NCBI GenBank assembly: GCA_016285515.1
Contig: JAEEQW010000002.1
Location: 124,001-188,000, forward strand
Length of the DNA: 64,000 nucleotides
Source of the DNA: Bacteroidales bacterium
GTDB taxonomy: Bacteria; Bacteroidota; Bacteroidia; Bacteroidales; BM520
Direction: 5' to 3'
A model generated the notes under the pieces. It made no database searches, had not been told where the DNA came from, and saw nothing but the letters and a program-made list of their open reading frames with translations. Made by a program: the position numbers and the translations under genes. Positions 49,849 through 61,659 of this stretch are shown here, in pieces (the first letter of the stretch is position 1; every line of letters begins with the position of its first letter).

Positions 49849-51156
49849 CTAATCTGTCTTCAATTTCCATTTCACCACTTTGGTCTGGCATGTTTCTTCA
49901 TCTTGCGTTGTTGCCGTAATGGTAAGGGTTTTAGGATTGAATGTGTAGTCCACATCAAGAGCGTGGTATGTATAGCAAATACCATACGCGCCATCTTCTT
50001 TTACCCAATCACTTTCATCCACACACACTCCTTTAACAACCGTAACCTTCTTTATTTCACCATATTCCTTCTTGCCAGGGAAAAAGTGAATATGGTATTG
50101 TGGAATTCCGTCATTAAAAGTAACTATCTCCATATTATACCCCCATTCTGAGGAGCTTCCGGACCAGACACTTTTTAGAACATAGAAAGTGGAATCGTGA
50201 TAGTCAAACTGCCACACATCCAAAACATTCCTCTTACAATCAAACCTTCTGTCCCCTTGCCATTCTTTACACACCAACTTTCCATCAGAATCTATATATT
50301 GATAATATGTCACCAACTCCACCATTGTTCCTCCACCGATGTTCCGTGTAGTATAAAACTTATACTTTCCGTCTGGAGAGGCAGACACTCTGATTGGATC
50401 GTTTGAAGTCCTATTCCACTGGTGGAATGTAACAGGGTTCGACAAGTGAAATTCCAATCGGCCGAGAAAAATATCCTCCCATAAATAATTATAATGATTT
50501 AAGCGATTTTCATACCACTTTACGTTTATTATGTCAAATTCCTTCTTGATATCCTTCACGCTTTTATACGGAGTCGTCTTAATGTTGAGCCTTCGCGCTT
50601 GAGAGGCAATAGAATCAATTTCTATATCTGAAAAGTTGTGATTTTCTATCCTACCGCCTGTAATAGAGTTAAGATAGTAGTAATTGGGACTATGAACGAT
50701 TGGCAATTCCTCATTAGACAGGTTATGGTCTTCCATTCTGTCACCTGTAACAGAGTCGTAATTGGAACTTTGAATAACTGACAGTTCCTCATTAGACAGG
50801 TTATGGTCTTCCATTCTGTCACCTGAAATAGAGTCGTAATTGGAACCATGAACGACTGACAGTTCCCCATTAGCCTCCTTACCGCCTTTGCTTTTACAAC
50901 CAACCAGCAAAATGGCGCAAAAAACGACAAGAGCTGCACGTTTCAGGTTCCCTGCCACCTTTGAATAAGCTTCACTATTGCCCGCGTAATTGCCATAACG
51001 ATGACCAATGCCAGCAACGCAATTACGTTGCTTGAACGAATTGAACAACAAGTACGACTTCCCGCAACGAAAGACTCCAGTAAAAATATTGACAAGACGA
51101 TAATGTTTGTGCGAGATAAGTTTTTGCAGGCACTCACTGCGATTAAATTCTATCAT
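49849..51156 (-). CDS. Lipoprotein with tandem repeats, in-frame with an AAA_14 remnant
   Basis: The open frame is 435 codons, but the first 43 (51156-51028) are the N-terminus of an AAA_14 ATPase (VNIFTGVFRCGKSYLLFNSF). Codon 67 is GTG at 50958 and is a plausible true start: it gives a signal peptide and lipobox (VVFCAILLVGCKSK, Cys87 of the long frame). Next come three copies of a 26-residue unit (NYDSxxGDRMEDHNLSNEEL). The remaining 290 residues are an unknown extracytoplasmic beta-rich domain. If translation began at 51156 the lipobox would be internal and not work, so the shorter form is favoured, though I see no strong ribosome site. Confidence 0.6.
   Translation of the reverse strand: MIEFNRSECLQKLISHKHYRLVNIFTGVFRCGKSYLLFNSFKQRNCVAGIGHRYGNYAGNSEAYSKVAGNLKRAALVVFCAILLVGCKSKGGKEANGELSVVHGSNYDSISGDRMEDHNLSNEELSVIQSSNYDSVTGDRMEDHNLSNEELPIVHSPNYYYLNSITGGRIENHNFSDIEIDSIASQARRLNIKTTPYKSVKDIKKEFDIINVKWYENRLNHYNYLWEDIFLGRLEFHLSNPVTFHQWNRTSNDPIRVSASPDGKYKFYTTRNIGGGTMVELVTYYQYIDSDGKLVCKEWQGDRRFDCKRNVLDVWQFDYHDSTFYVLKSVWSGSSSEWGYNMEIVTFNDGIPQYHIHFFPGKKEYGEIKKVTVVKGVCVDESDWVKEDGAYGICYTYHALDVDYTFNPKTLTITATTQDEETCQTKVVKWKLKTD
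50705..50880 (-). repeat. 78-bp tandem repeat inside the lipoprotein gene
   Basis: The block CTCATTAGACAGGTTATGGT recurs at 50710 and 50788, a period of 78 bases (26 codons), with a more diverged third copy on the lower-coordinate side. It encodes the repeated NYDSxxGDRMEDHNLSNEEL units. Confidence 0.8.
51028..51156 (-). pseudogene. N-terminal remnant of an AAA_14/DUF4143 ATPase gene
   Basis: Codons 1-43 read IEFNRSECLQKLISHKHYRL then VNIFTGVFRCGKSYLLF and align with the first 45 residues of the intact ATPase at 30074 (VKVVTGLRRCGKSYLLF). A TACTTTTG element on the minus strand (complement near 51212-51219) is probably the old promoter. The rest of the gene has been deleted, and the lipoprotein frame now follows directly. 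Confidence 0.7.
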
Positions 51157-51307: not shown

Positions 51308-51335
51308 GTAGAGACGCGATTAATCGCGTCTCTAC
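51308..51335. repeat. Perfect 28-bp palindrome at the distal end of the CRISPR array
   Basis: GTAGAGACGCGATT (51308-51321) is followed by its exact reverse complement (51322-51335), with no loop. It sits nine bases outside the last (leader-distal) CRISPR repeat. It resembles dispersed REP-like palindromes seen in several phyla, and as RNA it would fold into a strong hairpin that could end the leftward pre-crRNA. Confidence 0.75.
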
Positions 51336-51343
51336 CAACACAC

Positions 51344-53438
51344 ATCTTAATCCTTGTTTTAGTGGAAGTTCCTATCGGAGGAGTTCCAACAAGAACAGAT
51401 AGAACGCTATAAAAGTCTTAATCCTTGTTTTAGTGGAAGTTCCTATCGGAGCTATATTTCAATTACTCCATGGCTATCTGAGCGATGTCTTAATCCTTGT
51501 TTTACTGGAAGTTCCTATCGGAGCGACACAAAAGAAAATGAAAAGACAGGAAATTATTAAGTCTTAATCCTTGTTTTACTGGAAGTTCCTATCGGAGCCA
51601 TTTGCATTTATAATAATGATATTTAGCATATAATCTTAATCCTTGTTTTACTGGAAGTTCCTATCGGAGTTGTTCAAACATGTCGAACACAAACCGAAAG
51701 TCACTGTCTTAATCCTTGTTTTACTGGAAGTTCCTATCGGAGCAGGATTACTTCTGCATACTAACTTTGGGTTATTAGTCTTAATCCTTGTTTTACTGGA
51801 AGTTCCTATCGGAGCAACCTATTGGCAGTACACTACCGCTGATGTCGAGAAAGTCTTAATCCTTGTTTTACTGGAAGTTCCTATCGGAGAGTACGACAAA
51901 ATAACCGTTGACGAATTTCAAAAACGTCTTAATCCTTGTTTTACTGGAAGTTCCTATCGGAGGTGCCATGCTGACAACTGAAAAAGACGCTTATTGCTGT
52001 CTTAATCCTTGTTTTACTGGATGTTCCTATCGGAGTGTTATCTGACTACACTTCAAAGATTAATGATGGGATGGGTCTTAATCCTTGTTTTACTGGATGT
52101 TCCTATCGGAGTGGAAAACACAAACACTGTTGAGACAATCAACGTGGCGTCTTAATCCTTGTTTTACTGGATGTTCCTATCGGAGATCCAACAAAATTAA
52201 TGAATGTTTGTAATATATTCGTCTTAATCCTTGTTTTACTGGATGTTCCTATCGGAGTGGCTGCTGAATGTAGCTATGATAATTTATATGATAGTCTTAA
52301 TCCTTGTTTTACTGGATGTTCCTATCGGAGTCCGCAAAAAAAATGTCCAAATTCGTCATGGACATGAAGTCTTAATCCTTGTTTTACTGGATGTTCCTAT
52401 CGGAGCTAATTACCATATCAGTATTATTAATTGTAGTAATGGGTCTTAATCCTTGTTTTACTGGATGTTCCTATCGGAGTATATGAAGGCGTTCACAATC
52501 GTATTGCCCGACAATGTCTTAATCCTTGTTTTACTGGATGTTCCTATCGGAGTGAAAACAGAACAAGAACGTAAGTATGAAAAAGGCGAAGGTCTTAATC
52601 CTTGTTTTACTGGATGTTCCTATCGGAGTTAACAAAGTAAAAAGCAAAAGTGTTACACACACTTGGGTCTTAATCCTTGTTTTACTGGATGTTCCTATCG
52701 GAGTAGGAGAAAACAAAATGAAAAACAAGGAAATTTTGGGTCTTAATCCTTGTTTTACTGGATGTTCCTATCGGAGTGGAAGGAATTTTCAAAATGTTAA
52801 ATAAAAAGTTGGTCTTAATCCTTGTTTTACTGGATGTTCCTATCGGAGCAATTCAAACGGAGTTGTTGACCCTGCAAAAATTGCAGTCTTAATCCTTGTT
52901 TTACTGGATGTTCCTATCGGAGTATATATGTATTAGAAGTTGTGCCCGACACGGAATTAGTCTTAATCCTTGTTTTACTGGATGTTCCTATCGGAGCGAT
53001 GAGGCGGTGGAATACGAGAACTACAACTGCGTTGTCTTAATCCTTGTTTTACTGGATGTTCCTATCGGAGTTATATATAAGTATTTGAAAATCAATAATT
53101 TATTAAGTCTTAATCCTTGTTTTACTGGATGTTCCTATCGGAGAATAAAAGAAAAGTACGAAGAAATCACAAATAATGTTGTCTTAATCCTTGTTTTACT
53201 GGATGTTCCTATCGGAGCACACAAGGAAATTAAACAGACAATAATGTCAGAGTTGGGTCTTAATCCTTGTTTTACTGGATGTTCCTATCGGAGTCAAGTT
53301 ACTTGACTAAACAAGTAACAGACAAATTTGTCTTAATCCTTGTTTTACTGGATGTTCCTATCGGAGAGGTCTATGACGTGTCGAACGCCAATGGTTTACT
53401 TGTCTTAATCCTTGTTTTACTGGATGTTCCTATCGGAG
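51344..53438 (-). CRISPR. CRISPR array, 29 repeats and 28 spacers, transcribed leftward
   Basis: Repeats are 37 bp; on the transcribed (minus) strand they begin CTCCGATAGGAAC and end ATTAAGAC, the 8-nt 5'-handle type seen in type III and related systems. Spacers are 34-39 bp. Starts of repeats on the plus strand run from 51344, 51415, 51487 through 53330 and 53402. Three repeat variants are ordered: the two most distal copies read TAGTGGAAG, the next seven TACTGGAAG, and the twenty nearest the leader TACTGGATG. The copies at 51344 and 51633 also have A for the terminal G. Distal degeneracy, the AT-rich leader on the right, and the cas genes on the right all support minus-strand transcription. 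Confidence 0.98.
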
Positions 53439-53607
53439 ACCAAATTTTGTAAATTATTGATAATAAACTATATATAATTAAAATACAAGGCGTTTATGAT
53501 AATTCTCATCATCTTTTTGTACCTTTTACGCTACAAAAGTACATAATATTTCAAAATGTCAAAGAACTAATAAAACTATTTTATGGCGTGCGTCCGCATG
53601 GAACCAC
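53439..53607 (-). promoter_or_regulatory. CRISPR leader with its own promoter
   Basis: The 169-base AT-rich gap between the array and the TPR/OB gene carries, on the minus strand, a -7 box TACTTTTG (complement of 53534-53541) 18 bases after a -33 box TTTG (complement of 53560-53563). This is close to the Bacteroidota consensus. Transcription would start near 53527, leaving about 90 nt of leader before the first repeat, so the array can be expressed independently of the cas operon. Confidence 0.7.
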
Positions 53608-54900
53608 TCAATCATCATCTTGGGCAGGTATCTTCCGCCATGAACGCACCTGACTCGGCTTGTTACGCTCTATCTTCACAACCATGATTTCTATCCGGTC
53701 CCCCTTGTTGATGCTTTTGCGCCGCTTGCTGCTTTTCTCCCTGAAGAAGCCTGAATTTCTCTGTTTGGTGACAAAGGAAACGAAGCCCTTATCCTCATTG
53801 ATATGGGTCACTTGCACCACCACAGGTTTCGCTGTGCCGATAAACTTGTCTTCCGCCCAAGCCGAATGCTGGAGATATAGCACACGGTTGTCCTTTGCAG
53901 CCAGTACATCAGTCAATTCCTGCTGGCTTAAGTATCGGTGGATGCTCGCTGGAATTCTCCATTTGTTCTCCATGCGGATCCTGACCACTTCCTCAAACTC
54001 GTGTTTTGCTTCGGCATAGCAGCCTCTCTCTAACAATAGGATGGTCATCCTTTCCCTCAGGGCAATGCTCATCCGATCGGGTGTTCGGCATGTCATAGCC
54101 TTGCATAATGCGGAAAAACGCTGCTCCACGTCGCTGAGACTGTCGGCAATGAGCTCCCAAATCCAGAACTCATTCGGTTTTTTCTTCAGTAATGGCTTGA
54201 TGTGTCGCTCAATTTGCGCATCGCTTCCGCCCGTCACAATCATTAGCTTGATCAGGTAGTATGGGAGATAGATGTAAGTCGGATGCCTTTCGCATAGTTC
54301 CTCAAGCCGAGGAATCCATTCGTCAATGTCGGATTTGACGCCCTGCGACAAAAGTGCCTTGGAGTAAGCCATATATGTCTTCTCGGCCAACGAAAGCCCT
54401 TTCTTCCCATCGGGCAAAGTGGGTTCGGTGAAGTCGTTGGGAGTGAGATTGTCGAAATTCCACCAACGGCAAAATGAAGCAAAGCCCAGCCATTGGTCTT
54501 TCACCTTCAGGAAGGTGTTCAACATGCCCGAGTAAATATCGCCGGGTTTGGAGACATCCCACTGCGACACTTCTTTCCACAAGCTATCCAAAAAAGGAGT
54601 AGAGGCGGTGTCGCCTACACATTTCCGGACCATATTCCTGACCACCGCAAACATGGCGTTTAGAAACATCTCCTCATCGGAAGGCACCTTAAGATCCGTC
54701 ACTTTCTTGACGCACCGTAGGAATGCGTCCTGGTTTCCCAAGCTTGCACTTTGCTTGGCATAATCGTAAACGACCCACATCATGGCGCGTTTTGACCAGA
54801 TGCTTTCGGGGTCGGTCAAAGTCAACTCCTCGGCGGCGAAATACGCCTCCCGAAGTTTTCCCTCCTTGCGGAGTTTTGATATGTCGGCAAACTGGGTCAT
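53608..54900 (-). CDS. Helical-repeat (TPR-like) protein with C-terminal OB-fold, CRISPR-associated
   Basis: A 430-residue protein with no named family that I recognise. Residues 1-330 look like TPR-type helix pairs (LRKEGKLREAYFAAEELTLT, LALLERGCYAEAKHEFEEV-like units). Residues about 355-425 look like a cold-shock/S1-type OB fold (VVVQVTHINEDKGFVSFVT, INKGDRIEIMVVKIERNK), a nucleic-acid-binding unit. It starts one base after the cas2 stop and is the last gene before the leader. I infer an accessory adaptation or leader-binding factor; nothing in the sequence shows catalysis. Confidence 0.65.
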   Translation of the reverse strand: MTQFADISKLRKEGKLREAYFAAEELTLTDPESIWSKRAMMWVVYDYAKQSASLGNQDAFLRCVKKVTDLKVPSDEEMFLNAMFAVVRNMVRKCVGDTASTPFLDSLWKEVSQWDVSKPGDIYSGMLNTFLKVKDQWLGFASFCRWWNFDNLTPNDFTEPTLPDGKKGLSLAEKTYMAYSKALLSQGVKSDIDEWIPRLEELCERHPTYIYLPYYLIKLMIVTGGSDAQIERHIKPLLKKKPNEFWIWELIADSLSDVEQRFSALCKAMTCRTPDRMSIALRERMTILLLERGCYAEAKHEFEEVVRIRMENKWRIPASIHRYLSQQELTDVLAAKDNRVLYLQHSAWAEDKFIGTAKPVVVQVTHINEDKGFVSFVTKQRNSGFFREKSSKRRKSINKGDRIEIMVVKIERNKPSQVRSWRKIPAQDDD

Positions 54901-54901
54901 T

Positions 54902-55384
54902 TCAGAAAAACAGTGTGTTGGATGTTTTGATAATCACATCCACATTAATGGTCTGTCCTATTACCTTCATGGCTTTCAGGTAGTCTGTCGAGATGGGTAC
55001 AACGAGGATGCTGTCTTCGTTGTCGTAGCAGGCCTGAACCTCGGCGAGGTCGCTCTTTATTTGCTCGTATTTCGCGATGGGAAGATCGGCCAGAAAGATG
55101 GATTTCTGTACGCGGGTGCATCCCTGTCGCTCAAGGTATTTCACCACATGACGACGCACTTTGTTGCTCTCTATATCGTACATTACAAAAAATAACATTT
55201 GCGTGGCAGGTCTTTTTTTGTTTTTCACTATTCCGAACACTATTTTCAAACGCTCCTCCAACGAAGGCAGCTGGTCCAACTCATCGGACGGATGATTGGG
55301 AGGGGAATTGTCCTTCAATCCAGCAGCCTTCAACTTGGCCATTTCCTCCACAAAACTCAAAGGCGGTTTCTTTTTCCTTGGCAT
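54902..55384 (-). CDS. cas2: Cas2 with an extended N-terminus
   Basis: A 160-residue protein. The ferredoxin-like Cas2 core occupies about residues 60-160 (MLFFVMYDIESNKVRRHVVK, LERQGCTRVQKSIFLADL, SILVVPISTDYL). The first 60 residues (PRKKKPPLSFVEEMAKLKAA onward) are a charged extension absent from ordinary 90-100-residue Cas2 proteins. Cas2 bridges Cas1 dimers in the integrase. Gap to the primase is three bases. Confidence 0.88.
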   Translation of the reverse strand: MPRKKKPPLSFVEEMAKLKAAGLKDNSPPNHPSDELDQLPSLEERLKIVFGIVKNKKRPATQMLFFVMYDIESNKVRRHVVKYLERQGCTRVQKSIFLADLPIAKYEQIKSDLAEVQACYDNEDSILVVPISTDYLKAMKVIGQTINVDVIIKTSNTLFF

Positions 55385-55387
55385 AAC

Positions 55388-56413
55388 TTACGTATTTTCT
55401 ATCAAAAATGACTGTATCAGGTTAACTGCCAAATCATTGAACTCATCGTCCGTGCCCGTACGTGGCGACTTCACCACCGAAAAGCCCCGCTTGCCATAAA
55501 AAAGGTTTACCTCCGCTTGTCTTAACCGCATCTTCAGCCGTATTTTCTTTCCATAAGAGATATTGATGACTTCCGCCACCTCCACCCCAGTCTGGGTGAT
55601 GTATTTCCGCAAATCATCCATTATCTCGTTCAGCTGTTCGGGCACATAGACCGGTTTCTCCAGTTTCTTGGCAGCTTTAGGATTCAGGATGGCCTTGATA
55701 TTGGCCAAGATATCGCCGTCCACATCGGCCTTGAGTTCTTTCGTGTCTTCCTCCACCTGCTGCTTTTTCGTCACCTTTTCTTCTTCTTCAAGATGATGCT
55801 TCAAGTCAAACAAAGCAGTCGGGTCGTCGGCATCGACAAACCGCCCTATATTCACTGGCACAGCATCTGGACGATAAAACGCATCAAGGTCCACACTCAC
55901 AAAACAGGCCCGGGTCACATCGCAGGTCTGCTTGTCAACCACCTGTTCTATCTGGTATTGTCGGGCAAACTGCTGGGTAAAAGCCTTGTAGAACAGGGAG
56001 AAGAGACCTTTATCATAGCAGCGTTCCGACAGTTTGAACAGCACCTTCAGTCCATCCTCCCCCGGCGACACAAAGCAGAGCACCACCCGGTCATCCTGAA
56101 CTATGCGCTGTTTAAGCGCTTCCACCGACAATTCCTTTTCAGAGATTTTGTCAATATCCAGCATAAAGTATTCGATGTAGGCAAAGTTCTCACTTCTGCG
56201 GTAGGGCGGGTTGAAGATGCCGCAGACAATATAGGGCAGTTGCCGCTTTAGGGCACTGTAGCGTTTGTAGTCCAAGGCCCTCACAAGGCGCAACTGTCGA
56301 ATTTGTGCCTGCGTCTCCGGTTTGGGATTCCGCAGTGCGTGATAGATGTTCATCACCGGCACTTTCACCAAAGGGTCGTTGGTGGAGATAATATTCTTTC
56401 CGAAAAGGATCAT
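55388..56413 (-). CDS. BT4734/VirE-N-type AEP primase, CRISPR-associated
   Basis: A 341-residue protein of the archaeo-eukaryotic primase superfamily. Motifs: FMLDIDKI with Asp86 and Asp88, SPGEDGLKVLFKL (the SPSGxGLK block of BT4734-like domains), and DVTRACFVSVDLDAFY with Asp165 and Arg168. The C-terminal 130 residues are a separate domain with an acidic linker. Related CRISPR-associated primase-polymerases have been tied to adaptation. The start overlaps the cas1 stop by four bases (56410-56413), so it is translated with Cas1. Confidence 0.78.
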   Translation of the reverse strand: MILFGKNIISTNDPLVKVPVMNIYHALRNPKPETQAQIRQLRLVRALDYKRYSALKRQLPYIVCGIFNPPYRRSENFAYIEYFMLDIDKISEKELSVEALKQRIVQDDRVVLCFVSPGEDGLKVLFKLSERCYDKGLFSLFYKAFTQQFARQYQIEQVVDKQTCDVTRACFVSVDLDAFYRPDAVPVNIGRFVDADDPTALFDLKHHLEEEEKVTKKQQVEEDTKELKADVDGDILANIKAILNPKAAKKLEKPVYVPEQLNEIMDDLRKYITQTGVEVAEVINISYGKKIRLKMRLRQAEVNLFYGKRGFSVVKSPRTGTDDEFNDLAVNLIQSFLIENT

Positions 56414-57393
56414 AGTTCCGCTTTTTTAAATTGTTGTGCCAGATTTTGTGCATAGAGGAATATCTGATGCTGTCGTGAGCGCACATTGCCTTTCACTTCC
56501 ACGGATTCCTCCAGGTAATCGTTCAACGACTGTATAAGGACGCGCCGCCCCAAGGGTTCGAGCCAGTACGAGCCGTCTGATTGCACCGAGTAATACTCGT
56601 CGGTGACGGCATTTTGGAGGAGGAGGGTATAGACCACATAGTCCACCCACACGCGATAGAGTTCAATCACATCGTACACCAGCACAGGGCGGTTGTAGTC
56701 ATCGCGGTGAAGCACGCCGATGTAGGGGTCGATGCCTGCCTTGATGAGTGCGCCCTCCACTTTGCCGTACAGCACACCATATCCGTAATTAAGGAAGGCG
56801 TTGGGCACATCGAGGGCAGGATGCTGGCTGCGTTTCTCGAACCTGTAGTGTTCGGGGAGGAACATATTCAAGGCCTCAAAATAGATTTTGGAGGCAAGTC
56901 CCTCCCACCCCCGCAACGTGGAGGAGATATCGGAAATCACCTCACCGTCGATAGCAGCAATCTTTGTGCGGTAATCTTCCAGTCGGCGGATGGCGGTCTG
57001 CACACGGTTGGCAGTAGGCTCGTCATGTGCGGTCATTGCGAGGATCAAGGCTTGCTGATTCTCGATTTTGCGGCGGATGACATCCTTAATCCAGTCGATG
57101 GCATTATGGGAGAGCGAGAAATTGAGTTGTCCCTTACGGATGGTGGACACGGAGCCGTACTTTGGAGACCAGATGCGGCCTATGACATTGCCAGAGCGGT
57201 CCATAAATACAACCTCGATTTCGCGTTCCACGGCGAGCATCACGGCATCGGATGTGATTTGCGCCCCTTTGGATATCTGGATGGAAGTGATGCCCTCGGC
57301 GGGCACGCGCTGCCGCCCCTCCGAAGTGGAAATCACAAAGCCCTCATTGTCGCGGTTGAGGGATGTTCCGAATGAGTTAATGATGAGTTCCAT
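56410..57393 (-). CDS. cas1: CRISPR integrase Cas1
   Basis: A 327-residue Cas1 with the metal-binding residues in place: Glu164 (RGWEGLASKIYFEAL), His229 (GVLHRDDYNRPVLVYD) and Glu244 (YDVIELYR). The N-terminal beta domain (NSFGTSLNRDNEGFVI) and GYGVLYGKVEGALIKAGIDP are typical. No reverse transcriptase or Cas6 fusion. It is flanked by a helicase gene and the primase gene, all on one transcript. Confidence 0.97.
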   Translation of the reverse strand: MELIINSFGTSLNRDNEGFVISTSEGRQRVPAEGITSIQISKGAQITSDAVMLAVEREIEVVFMDRSGNVIGRIWSPKYGSVSTIRKGQLNFSLSHNAIDWIKDVIRRKIENQQALILAMTAHDEPTANRVQTAIRRLEDYRTKIAAIDGEVISDISSTLRGWEGLASKIYFEALNMFLPEHYRFEKRSQHPALDVPNAFLNYGYGVLYGKVEGALIKAGIDPYIGVLHRDDYNRPVLVYDVIELYRVWVDYVVYTLLLQNAVTDEYYSVQSDGSYWLEPLGRRVLIQSLNDYLEESVEVKGNVRSRQHQIFLYAQNLAQQFKKAEL

Positions 57394-57401
57394 AGAGCTG
57401 G

Positions 57402-58868
57402 TTATTCAATGAAGGGTTTGTTTAAAAGATGGATATATTGCTGAGTACGGGTCACAGCGGTGTAAATCCATTGATATTTTTCCTTGGTGGGATTGAGCAA
57501 CTTATTGCTCATATCTACAAAGACATGTTTCCACTCACCGCCCTGTGCCTTGTGGCAAGTCACTGCATAACCAAAGTTGCAGCGCAAGGCATTCAAATAG
57601 GAATCGCGCAGTAAGGCTTCGTGAAACTGCTCTTTGTTGTGCTTCTGCGTGATACAACGCTTTTTCATTCGTTGCACGAAATCAACAAACAGTGCGGTTT
57701 GTTTGCCCGAATCAAGGTTCAGTGTGCCGGAATAAAGTGTATCCGTGAGCAGTAGGGAAGCCACCTCCCGCTTAGTGAAAAGTTCACGCAATTTCACCGG
57801 AACAAACGTGAGATTGGCTAGAAGAAACGCTTTTTCGTAAGAAATTTTCATCACCTCTACCATATCCCCATTCATCAACCCCGTTGGATAATTATTTTGA
57901 ATAACCATTAGGAGATCGCCTTCCTGCAGTTGCAGATTCACAATGCCCAACTTGTTCCGAATTATTGCAGACAACTCTGCACATTTTTTGTTGCTTGGAG
58001 TGATAAATATTGCACTATTGTACCCCTCGTGTTTTACAATTTCCACATATTTGTCAGTCATTGCTCCAAAATCATAATAAAGAGAAGTCTCTTTGCAATG
58101 ACGAAGAGGCACACGCCCCCATACCCTTTGGTATCCATAAACGGTTTCTTTTTCAGGAGCGTTCTCACAAAGTTTACGAATTTGTTGCGAAGCAGGAATC
58201 AAGGTGCTGTCATCTGATTGGCGGAATATTTGAGTCAGCGAGTGTTCTTCGGCGGTCATTCCGAAATGCTGCCGGAAATATTCCGGGTTAAGAGCTGGAG
58301 ACTGCACCTCCTGAATAGGCGGCAGTTGGCAGGGGTCGCCAACAAAGATGAACTTGCTTTGAGGACGTGGGTCAAAAGCCAACAGTTCCTTGAGCAATCT
58401 GCCTGACCCGAATTTCGCCTGAGTGATGTTCTTTTCCTCAACATCCGCTACCATCGACGACTCATCCACCACGTATATGGTGGGTTCTGTATCTTCGGTA
58501 TTCAAAGTCACCGCTTCAAAGTTGAGGAACAGCTGTCCTGTTTTCCCGACAATGAGTTCTGTTTCCTTTGTTTCCGACAAGTCTTTGTTCAAGTCCGTGA
58601 ACGTGTAAATCATAGAATGGATGGTTGCGGCTTCCGTATCGCACACATTCGAGAGCACCTTGGCTGCCCGCCCTGTGGGTGCCAGTAGCCGGAATTGGAT
58701 TTTCTTCCGTTTGAGTTCCTGTATCAAAAAGCGCATCAAGGTGGTCTTGCCTGTACCTGCATAACCTTTGAGAATGAAGACGCGTTTGCTGTCCTGCTGC
58801 ACGAAAGATTTCAATGCATCAAGGATTTTCTCCTGTTGGGTGCTTAGGGTGATGTTGGAGGTGTTCAT
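57402..58868 (-). CDS. RecD2/Pif1-type SF1B helicase, CRISPR-associated
   Basis: A 488-residue helicase. Walker A GYAGTGKTT (35-43), LAPTGRAAKVL (motif Ia), VVDESSMV (motif II, residues 133-140), FVGDPCQLPPI (motif III), GYAVTCHKAQGGEWKHVFVD (motif V) and YTAVTRTQQYIHL (motif VI). The set is complete. It lies between the Csx20-like gene, which it overlaps by four bases, and cas1, eight bases away. The placement suggests a role in preparing DNA for spacer capture rather than general repair. Confidence 0.88.
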   Translation of the reverse strand: MNTSNITLSTQQEKILDALKSFVQQDSKRVFILKGYAGTGKTTLMRFLIQELKRKKIQFRLLAPTGRAAKVLSNVCDTEAATIHSMIYTFTDLNKDLSETKETELIVGKTGQLFLNFEAVTLNTEDTEPTIYVVDESSMVADVEEKNITQAKFGSGRLLKELLAFDPRPQSKFIFVGDPCQLPPIQEVQSPALNPEYFRQHFGMTAEEHSLTQIFRQSDDSTLIPASQQIRKLCENAPEKETVYGYQRVWGRVPLRHCKETSLYYDFGAMTDKYVEIVKHEGYNSAIFITPSNKKCAELSAIIRNKLGIVNLQLQEGDLLMVIQNNYPTGLMNGDMVEVMKISYEKAFLLANLTFVPVKLRELFTKREVASLLLTDTLYSGTLNLDSGKQTALFVDFVQRMKKRCITQKHNKEQFHEALLRDSYLNALRCNFGYAVTCHKAQGGEWKHVFVDMSNKLLNPTKEKYQWIYTAVTRTQQYIHLLNKPFIE

Positions 58869-59233
58869 GACAACTTATATTTTCTAAATTGCACAAATTG
58901 GAAAAAAGATTCTTTCCTTCCGTCGGGATATTCCACGGTTTCGCGCCGGGTGGTGGATGCCACGCAAGGGATTCCAAGGATATGCAGTCGCTGCACGAGC
59001 GCGAAGGTGAAGGTCATTTCGCCCATCAGATGCACTGTAACATCCTGACCCTCAGATATTTCCAAAACTTTACAAAGATACTCATCGACGATAGACGCGA
59101 TATAGTCCTCATCGCCGACAGGATCCACCGCAGGGAAAGGCAGGTCAACAATTTCGCCCGAAAGCTGTCTCGCAGCTTCGGTCTGCTCCGCACTCCAGTT
59201 GGCGGACGGGTGGTTGGAGAGGTTCAGGAACAT
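58865..59233 (-). CDS. Csx20-like predicted ring nuclease
   Basis: A 122-residue single-domain protein. FLNLSNHPSANWSAEQTEAA, VHLMGEMTFTFALVQRL and STTRRETVEYPDGRK followed by QFVQFRKY recall Csx20/Csx15-type CARF-like proteins, which have been predicted to degrade cyclic oligoadenylate. Two cOA-responsive effectors are encoded directly upstream, so a damping enzyme makes sense here. The family call is from memory of motifs and needs a profile search. Confidence 0.6.
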   Translation of the reverse strand: MFLNLSNHPSANWSAEQTEAARQLSGEIVDLPFPAVDPVGDEDYIASIVDEYLCKVLEISEGQDVTVHLMGEMTFTFALVQRLHILGIPCVASTTRRETVEYPDGRKESFFQFVQFRKYKLS

Positions 59234-59235
59234 AA

Positions 59236-60558
59236 TTATTGATTATTATTTAGTTTATAAAAACAAGTGATAGTACGCTCCACAAACTCGTTTACTTTTG
59301 CTTCGATTTCTTGTGGAGATGGCGAGTTTTCGTTGAAACCAGCATGATTGAAGTTATTTCTATAATCGCGGATTTCTTGGTAAATATGAACAAGTTCGTT
59401 ATTGTGTTTGCCGACAGACATTATCCATTTGTCCTGCAAAACACTCTCGATATCAACAATCTGAGTATCAGACAATTCTATCGGCCATTTGTCTTTACGG
59501 TTTTGCTTGTGGTTGATTTGAATATTCAATGCAATTTCCACAATTAGGCGCATATCTTTATCCATCAAATCAAAACCATGCCTTTCGCAGAAAAGGGTTA
59601 CAAAATTTTCTCTGAGCATAGTTATGGCTTGTTGGAAAAGGCCATTTTTAACACACCATTTTGCTGCTTGAAAACCATTCATAAAGTTAGGAAATACCGA
59701 AAATTCTTCCAACGAGGTATCAACTTTTTTTAATATCTGATGAAGTGGCTCGTCTTCGGGATTTACATCTTTACTTTCAAGGAAATCTGACAATTCACTT
59801 TTAAGACTTGAAAGGCTTTCCGAATTATGTATCTGTAACCCACGGCAAGTCTGACGCTCTTTTATGACAGTTTCAAGTTTGTCAACAATTTTTTTCAAAA
59901 CATCGGATTTGATAATAGACTTTAATTCCACGAGTTTGGTGACATTTCCGCTATCAAGGTAAGTACCAGCTGCGTATGTCCAATCCTGCAATACCGAAAT
60001 AGAAGTCAAATCCATTATTGGCTTAGAATCGGTTTCTGCCATAAAGTTTCCGTAAGTGATTGACTTTACGGTTACTTTTTTCAAGAACTTTGAATAATTA
60101 ATGAGAACGGTCAGAAGCATTGGCAGATAACGGAATGCATGGGTTATATCAAAATACAACTCATCTCCATCGTTTATTTCGTTGAAAATTGTATCAAAAA
60201 TATCCCATATTTCATCCGTGTCTTTGCCGTCTTTGATTGGTTTTGGTGTGAGGACAAATGGAAAATCCATTTTTTCGGACTCAGCTTTCAAGCCCTCTTT
60301 TTCAACGGGTTTGACCTGTCCGGCAACTCTTGCCATACCCTTATTCCACTGGTCGCTTTCAGCTTTGGATGTTAGAAATATTATCGCCACGTCATTTACC
60401 GTCCATGGATTATTTTCGACAGTACATTTTTCAACAAGATATTTCAATGTAGCAAGTTGAATATACCTTGTGGTGAACACAGGTCTTTCGTTGGCGGAAT
60501 ATGTACATTCCCCGTAGGGCCCCGTACCAAGTATTGATATAAACACTTTTCTTGCCAT
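59236..60558 (-). CDS. Csx1/Csx2-like CARF-HEPN ribonuclease (TIGR02221 type)
   Basis: A 440-residue protein. The CARF domain shows FISILGTGPYGECTYSAN, TTRYIQLATLKYLVEKC and FDITHAFRYLPMLLT. The C-terminal HEPN domain carries the RxxxxH motif as RNNFNH (Arg400-His405). When type III complexes make cyclic oligoadenylate, such enzymes become unspecific ribonucleases. It lies three bases after the Can2-like gene and two before the Csx20-like gene. Confidence 0.85.
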   Translation of the reverse strand: MARKVFISILGTGPYGECTYSANERPVFTTRYIQLATLKYLVEKCTVENNPWTVNDVAIIFLTSKAESDQWNKGMARVAGQVKPVEKEGLKAESEKMDFPFVLTPKPIKDGKDTDEIWDIFDTIFNEINDGDELYFDITHAFRYLPMLLTVLINYSKFLKKVTVKSITYGNFMAETDSKPIMDLTSISVLQDWTYAAGTYLDSGNVTKLVELKSIIKSDVLKKIVDKLETVIKERQTCRGLQIHNSESLSSLKSELSDFLESKDVNPEDEPLHQILKKVDTSLEEFSVFPNFMNGFQAAKWCVKNGLFQQAITMLRENFVTLFCERHGFDLMDKDMRLIVEIALNIQINHKQNRKDKWPIELSDTQIVDIESVLQDKWIMSVGKHNNELVHIYQEIRDYRNNFNHAGFNENSPSPQEIEAKVNEFVERTITCFYKLNNNQ

Positions 60559-60561
60559 AAT

Positions 60562-61659
60562 TTATTTCGTATTAATGTTAAACAATTCACTGTCCAAAAG
60601 CAAAGCTAATGCTTTTTCAGGAGGTAAACCAAGATTATCGTCTTGTAATGAGAATGAAATGATGCCATTGTCCTTGCATTTTTCCCGTGCCAGAATATTC
60701 ATTGGTGCATTGGTTACAAACAAGGCCTTACACCCCATACCTCCGTAATTTTTTACTGCTGCGGTAAACTTATCTATATCTGTGACTTCATGTATTTGCG
60801 TCTTGCTCTCTACAAACAACAGTTTACCGCCTGCATTTAAAATAATGTCTATTTCATTTTTGGGGGCATTATTTGAAGCAGGAAACTTACAGTTCAGTCG
60901 TATATCAGATGATTTATTCCATAATGCGAGCAGATTTGCCACCTTGTACTCAAACCATCCTGAATTAATTAGCAATTGACGCAAATGAGGAGATTTCAGT
61001 GTCACATTCAACACTTGCCCTCTGGCATTCCTTATACGACAGAGGAATTCTTTAGAATCTTTTTTCCAAAATAGTTCCGACCCGTTGGCAGTAATATATT
61101 CCGTGACATTTTGATGTTTTTCGAAATTATTCACCAACTCTTTGAATTCCGTAAATGAATGAGCCCGAATTTTTTCTATTTGTTGCACACAAACTTTGTC
61201 GGCATCATCATAACTGCCAAAAGACCTGTAATCCTTCAATTGATTACCGCGAAGCCGAAACTGAGCATCCATATCAAAATCCACCTTACGAGCACTTTTG
61301 TTCGACAAATTCCAAAGCATATTGTTCTGATCCACATAGAATAGCGTGGCGTTTGGCATTGTGCCGATAATTTTTGCAAAATAGAACGCCCACGGTTTGG
61401 TTCCGCTTGAGATGTTCACCGACACTTCATCGTCTTTATACTTTTCTGCGCACAGGGCAACTTTCTTCTCAATATCATTCAAATCCACAGGATCCATTTT
61501 CCGCCTTTCCGAAGGTATTTTCACTTCCTCCGAAATTCTTTCAGCAATTTCCCGCGATTCATCCGAATAGATATAGACTATCTTGTCGGGCTGTGTGGCC
61601 ACGATGCCAGTGTAAACCGGTGCCGGCTGCCCGCCGACGAGGGTGATATGGACTTTCAT
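60562..61659 (-). CDS. Can2/Card1-like CARF nuclease (DUF1887)
   Basis: A 365-residue protein. The N-terminal CARF domain includes NISSGTKPWAFYFAKII. The C-terminal PD-(D/E)xK nuclease has GWFEYKVANLL (Glu237), NEIDIILNAGG (Asp271) and FVESKTQ (Glu284, Lys286), so the catalytic set is complete. Card1/Can2 enzymes cut nucleic acid on binding cA4. It overlaps the upstream ATPase gene by ATGA (61656-61659). Confidence 0.88.
   Translation of the reverse strand: MKVHITLVGGQPAPVYTGIVATQPDKIVYIYSDESREIAERISEEVKIPSERRKMDPVDLNDIEKKVALCAEKYKDDEVSVNISSGTKPWAFYFAKIIGTMPNATLFYVDQNNMLWNLSNKSARKVDFDMDAQFRLRGNQLKDYRSFGSYDDADKVCVQQIEKIRAHSFTEFKELVNNFEKHQNVTEYITANGSELFWKKDSKEFLCRIRNARGQVLNVTLKSPHLRQLLINSGWFEYKVANLLALWNKSSDIRLNCKFPASNNAPKNEIDIILNAGGKLLFVESKTQIHEVTDIDKFTAAVKNYGGMGCKALFVTNAPMNILAREKCKDNGIISFSLQDDNLGLPPEKALALLLDSELFNINTK

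Follow-up and report, generated by a model that had tools for sequence, protein, structure and literature searches.

Antisense spacers in a type III-A CRISPR array of a Bacteroidales bacterium with a primase-polymerase adaptation module

How might a CRISPR array come to hold spacers that are systematically antisense to mRNA, when no reverse transcriptase is found with it? The question is raised by an array with 28 spacers between 29 copies of a 37-nt repeat, at 51344..53438 on the minus strand of a 64,000-nucleotide stretch of a Bacteroidales genome, here called the window. Type III interference requires a crRNA complementary to the transcript. A preliminary description of the array proposed that its spacers have this antisense orientation, and offered two routes to it: selection, or directional uptake by a helicase and primase. 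Is the bias real, and which route accounts for it?

Which strand becomes crRNA? The repeat reads GTCTTAATCCTTGTTTTACTGGATGTTCCTATCGGAG (37 nt) on the plus strand, and the spacers between its copies are 34-39 nt long. Variant bases are found in repeats 1-9 (GGAAG, with AGTGG and ATCTT at the extreme end), and the other repeats are identical. Since repeat decay is confined to the low-coordinate side, the low-coordinate end is the old end. A predicted Bacteroidota-type promoter, TTTG-N18-TACTTTTG, lies in the leader at 53534..53563 on the minus strand, some 96 bases ahead of the array and directed into its high-coordinate end. In nine related arrays the motif stands at a nearly fixed spacing, 129-135 nt from the leader-side repeat; counted anywhere on the leader side it is present in 11 of 22 arrays, the window included, as against none of 16 on the opposite side. 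The position of the promoter and the decayed repeats at the low end indicate that crRNA is made from the minus strand, as first described, and thus that it pairs with RNA of plus-strand sequence. Transcription of the minus strand would come from the leader, at 53439 and above.

Several features of the array and its relatives may be recorded here. A near-perfect palindrome, GTAGAGACGCGATTAATCGCGTCTCTAC, immediately adjoins the old end at about 51308-51337, and the predicted protein adjoining the array (49849-51156, minus strand) contains in-frame tandem peptide repeats, variants of LSVVHGSNYDSISGDRMEDHNLSNEE. The exact window repeat had no match in the genome-contig collection, and none in other genomes of the order with two mismatches allowed. 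Blocks of at least two spacers are duplicated inside four related arrays, L202, L199, L190 and L189 (in L202, for example, spacers 4-6 equal 7-9, and in L199 spacers 3-5 equal 6-8), which is consistent with repeat slippage.

Are the 28 spacers really biased? Both strands of each were scored, frames summed, under a codon-usage model for which the genome's own genes or those of relatives served as the training set; such statistics yield fractions for a set of spacers, with no certainty for any single one. Summed over the spacers, the log-odds of plus over minus come to 61.6, with p = 4e-5 in a two-sided sign-flip test; maximum likelihood puts the sense fraction at 1.0 (0.82-1.0), or at 0.99 (0.81-1.0) when the training set is larger. 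Corrected against composition-preserving shuffles the codon score gives z = 3.1, so that shuffled spacers, named beforehand as a possible refutation, do not reproduce it. The reported excess of A over T on the plus strand is likewise present (409 A against 271 T; p = 0.0005 by sign-flip). It seems clear from these results that the antisense claim stands. The window array thus shares the preference for the coding strand that natural type III spacers show, as read from the codon model and spacer overlap, protospacer searches having yielded none.

Other parts of the original argument carry less weight. An open plus-strand frame is indeed present in all 28 spacers, where mononucleotide shuffles average 23.1 (P of 28 = 0.0035). 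The count is correct, but open frames alone are weak evidence, because the minus strand is also open in 25 of the 28 and each strand has 44 open frames in all. The caution that short AT-rich segments are often open by chance was well placed, and we dropped open-frame counts as main evidence. Nor do the two spacers that had been taken for translation starts (52704-52739 and 52777-52811) require that reading: two ribosome-binding-site-plus-ATG spacers were observed against 0.8 expected from shuffles, which is not significant and what composition predicts, and there is no excess of such spacers over shuffles in the repeat class as a whole.

One would like to read the strand directly from protospacers. 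The 28 spacers, joined by N linkers, gave nothing significant in INPHARED and nothing in PLSDB. A search of 149 genomes of the order (7 others from the family, 148 others from the order) gave no match, and outside the array the spacers' own genome has no significant second copy of them. Arrays of three large relatives had no match in INPHARED. Codon-degenerate patterns, six built from window spacers and two from Prevotella arrays, had no match in IMG/VR; these patterns were built on the plus frame, so that any match would be no unbiased test of strand. With no protospacer found, it is from codon statistics and from overlaps between spacers that we infer target genes and strand.

Is the bias peculiar to this array? 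A search of genome contigs with the first 23 bases of the repeat, which are conserved, led to 115 loci, in Bacteroidota and a few other groups, and all class arrays were read in one common orientation. Over 1,250 class spacers the sense fraction is 0.85; over a de-duplicated set of 1,358 it is 0.85 (0.83-0.88), and this set takes in the 28 spacers of the window (1,330 without them) as well as loci retrieved around CAPP_B. Because several class arrays share one genome, the intervals were checked by resampling whole arrays, which gives 0.82-0.88. The controls were type II-C and type I arrays that lie close to other cas1 genes in these genomes, though in fewer genomes than the class; their sense fractions are 0.56 (0.48-0.64) and 0.47 (0.42-0.52), and their composition-corrected z ranges from about -1.4 to 1.4, where every class group exceeds 10. 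A second test, free of codons, compares orientation within clusters of overlapping or homologous spacers. All 32 independent class clusters lie in one orientation, and the control clusters are split, five the same and four opposite (Fisher p = 0.0012 against the class). The antisense bias is a property of the repeat class that is lacking in the type I and type II arrays of the same genomes.

These results bear on two alternatives. One might suspect an artefact, in which chance open frames and skew in short AT-rich sequences mimic coding content; the open minus frames in 25 of 28 spacers, and the equal frame counts on the two strands, are what such an artefact would give. The sign-flip and composition-corrected scores of the window, the class z-scores and the 32 to 0 overlap result refute this reading, and we regard it as scarcely credible. 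Alternatively, Cas1-Cas2 might sample one strand of replicating phage DNA, phage genes being mostly co-directional with replication. Replication has been raised as a possible source of strand biases (PMC8482600), and our orientation tests do not separate it from transcription, but the type I and type II arrays of the same genomes are unbiased, so that the effect would need an uptake confined to type III. We consider it very unlikely.

What machinery serves the array? Upstream of the leader, all on the minus strand, follow a DUF7017 protein with an S1/CSD-like C-terminal domain (53608..54900), cas2 (54902..55384), the CRISPR-associated primase-polymerase type B, CAPP_B (55388..56413; NF040562, 433 bits, cut-off 200), cas1 (56410..57393), a RecD-like SF1 helicase (57402..58868), a Csx20-like protein (58865..59233; PDLC01397, 1e-34), a CARF-HEPN protein of the Csx1/TM1812 family (59236..60558) and a Card1/Can2-like CARF-nuclease (60562..61659). 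The cas2 product has some 62 extra N-terminal residues, its Cas2 domain beginning at residue 63. The genes csm5, csm4, csm3, csm2 and cas10/csm1, with a Cas6-like gene that has no family match, lie 1.7-9.1 kb past the end of the window. Csm1 (596 bits), Csm2 (65), Csm3 (186) and Csm4 (187), all on L011, score above their cut-offs; Csm5, at 27 bits, is under its cut-off of 38, but its position fits. The Cas10 translation has both an HD motif (HDIGKFY) and a GGDD motif (SGGDD). With Csm1-Csm5 present, Csm5 by its sub-cut-off score and position, and with the HD and GGDD motifs of Cas10 and the Csx1-like and Card1-like CARF genes, we assign the locus to a complete type III-A (Csm) system. A type III system, which was said to need the antisense orientation, is therefore at hand. 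CAPP_B beside cas1 and cas2, with the RecD-like helicase, likewise places here the known Cas1-CAPP_B-Cas2-RecD adaptation module.

Two observations on these genes lie apart from the question of strand. The product of csm5 (L011:1688-3538, minus strand) is 616 aa long, with a long charged, coiled-coil-like C-terminal extension past the weakly matched Csm5 domain. In PADLOC the DUF7017 gene is best matched by PDC-M16B and the RecD-like helicase by PDC-M16A, both listed there as 'phage defence candidates'. The two candidates may thus belong to the CAPP_B type III adaptation operon and form no separate defence system.

Could the spacers be copied from RNA after all? An RNA source could give the observed orientation, and a reverse transcriptase encoded elsewhere, or too diverged, might have gone undetected, the genome being 98% complete and so not quite full. 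There is, however, no RVT_1 match in it, in agreement with the first description, and Cas1 is a stand-alone protein of 327 aa with no reverse transcriptase fused to it or beside it. Among 42 genomes with related arrays each detected Cas1 reading frame is at most 372 aa, and so without such a fusion, and no RVT_1 match is found near Cas1. RT-Cas1 alone, moreover, gives just a moderate bias (PMC5576922), and published CAPPs prefer DNA templates and are poor on RNA (PMC8211822). An undetected reverse transcriptase seems to us extremely unlikely.

A directional uptake from DNA deserves more attention. Here the Cas1-CAPP_B-RecD machinery would capture single strands of phage DNA under transcription or replication and always insert them the same way round, which would make spacers antisense ahead of any selection. 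On either side of cas1 lie CAPP_B and the RecD-like helicase, and DbCas1 binds both DbCAPP and DbRecD (PMC8211822). Does the bias follow CAPP_B? The family was found above its cut-off, beside cas1, in 24 of the 42 genomes. Where a genome has no CAPP_B match, and some of these assemblies are incomplete, the sense fraction is 0.88 (0.81-0.94); for the other class arrays, CAPP_B loci excluded, it is 0.84 (0.79-0.88). The bias thus does not track CAPP_B, which argues against the helicase-primase route, as does the poor use of RNA by CAPPs.

The structure of the spacers themselves also has a bearing on uptake. Compared with dinucleotide shuffles, class spacers have an excess perfect-stem length of 0.29 +- 0.03 bp, and stems of at least 6 bp occur in 12.4% of them versus 7.0% of shuffles. 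The excess is 0.16 +- 0.04 in type I controls, 0.03 +- 0.04 in II-C controls and 0.08-0.13 in random 36-mers from two Bacteroides phages. When both are taken from the same genomes, type III spacers surpass those of type I in stem length (p = 0.007); for folding energy p = 0.09. Hairpins are commoner at loci sampled more than once (17 of 69 versus 156 of 1,289, p = 0.005). In the window, stem-loops are seen in spacers 53294-53329 (GTTACTTG-actaaa-CAAGTAAC), 52331-52368 and 52629-52666, though 28 spacers are too few to show an excess alone. Type III-A uptake in S. thermophilus prefers single-stranded DNA hairpins of the coding strand (reviewed in PMC9048733), and the hairpin excess in natural arrays is possibly a trace of such uptake; the enrichment suggests that uptake is not wholly random. 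It is conceivable, though we would not expect it, that Cas1-Cas2-CAPP_B-RecD prefers stem-loop single-stranded DNA and inserts it with a built-in orientation, so that adaptation free of reverse transcriptase is partly strand-aware before selection. If that were true, it would have left its mark in the hairpin excess and in an 85% bias, where the reported type III average is 65%. Spacers with and without hairpins are, however, equally antisense (0.89 and 0.85), and unselected type III uptake in Thermus, also free of reverse transcriptase, shows no strand preference (PMC7515739). With these results and the equal bias where CAPP_B is not found, we think biased uptake unlikely to be the source of the orientation.

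What remains is selection, which of the two routes first offered appears the better explanation. The array would serve as the memory of the type III-A (Csm) system, its crRNAs complementary to phage mRNA. Cas1-Cas2, CAPP_B and the RecD-like helicase most likely take up DNA fragments almost or wholly irrespective of the coding strand. To survive infection, a cell would need a new spacer that pairs with a phage transcript and so activates Cas10/Csm, and nearly all retained spacers would therefore be antisense. The class sense fraction by array quartile, from oldest to newest, is 0.88, 0.82, 0.84 and 0.87; the lack of an age gradient along class arrays in this quartile test is as expected if the bias is imposed when the cell survives infection. 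Selection for RNA-targeting spacers, acting on nearly strand-blind uptake, is thus in our judgment the likely explanation of the antisense bias. The bias would arise at immunisation and not at uptake, two steps that natural arrays cannot separate, and the simplest reading would be that the selection operating in published type III systems acts here as well.

Why does this matter? This class of type III arrays, associated with a primase-polymerase, is widespread in Bacteroidota, and its strong strand bias can be shown without protospacers, with no reverse transcriptase detected at its Cas1. The codon-and-overlap test offers a simple way to orient arrays and to tell RNA-targeting from DNA-targeting systems when the phages are unknown. 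It also leaves a sharp experimental question: does Cas1-CAPP_B-RecD pick a strand or a structure at uptake, or is selection alone at work?

How does the locus compare with systems already described? A close counterpart is the type III DbCAPP operon of a Dysgonamonadaceae bacterium (Zabrady et al. 2021, PMC8211822), which has Cas1, Cas2, CAPP_B and a RecD-like helicase together with a Can2-type gene, as here. The window CAPP matches the NCBIfam model PrimPol_Db at 433 bits. Unlike the operon as given there, the window locus also has Csx20, a Csx1-like protein and the DUF7017 gene; no analysis of spacer strand was found in the sections of that study consulted. Thermus thermophilus type III is alike in lacking a reverse transcriptase and in the strong strand bias of its protective spacers: both strands are acquired without selection, and strong bias appears only after it (Artamonova et al. 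2020, PMC7515739). There selection was shown by experiment, and for the present array it is inferred. The type III-B system of Marinomonas mediterranea likewise requires antisense spacers for interference; it has an RT-Cas1, where our locus has a stand-alone cas1, and even so the functional orientation is only marginally favoured when spacers are unselected (PMC5576922). That natural type III spacers pair with mRNA was reported by Vink et al. (2021, PMC8482600), so that an antisense bias is not surprising in itself. Coding-strand matches average 65% in that work, and reach 88% in Moraxella III-B. The higher fraction in our class may reflect the difference in method or some contribution from uptake. 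Vink et al. measured the bias by protospacers; here, without them, one Bacteroidota repeat class stands at about 85%, with controls from the same genomes near 50%.
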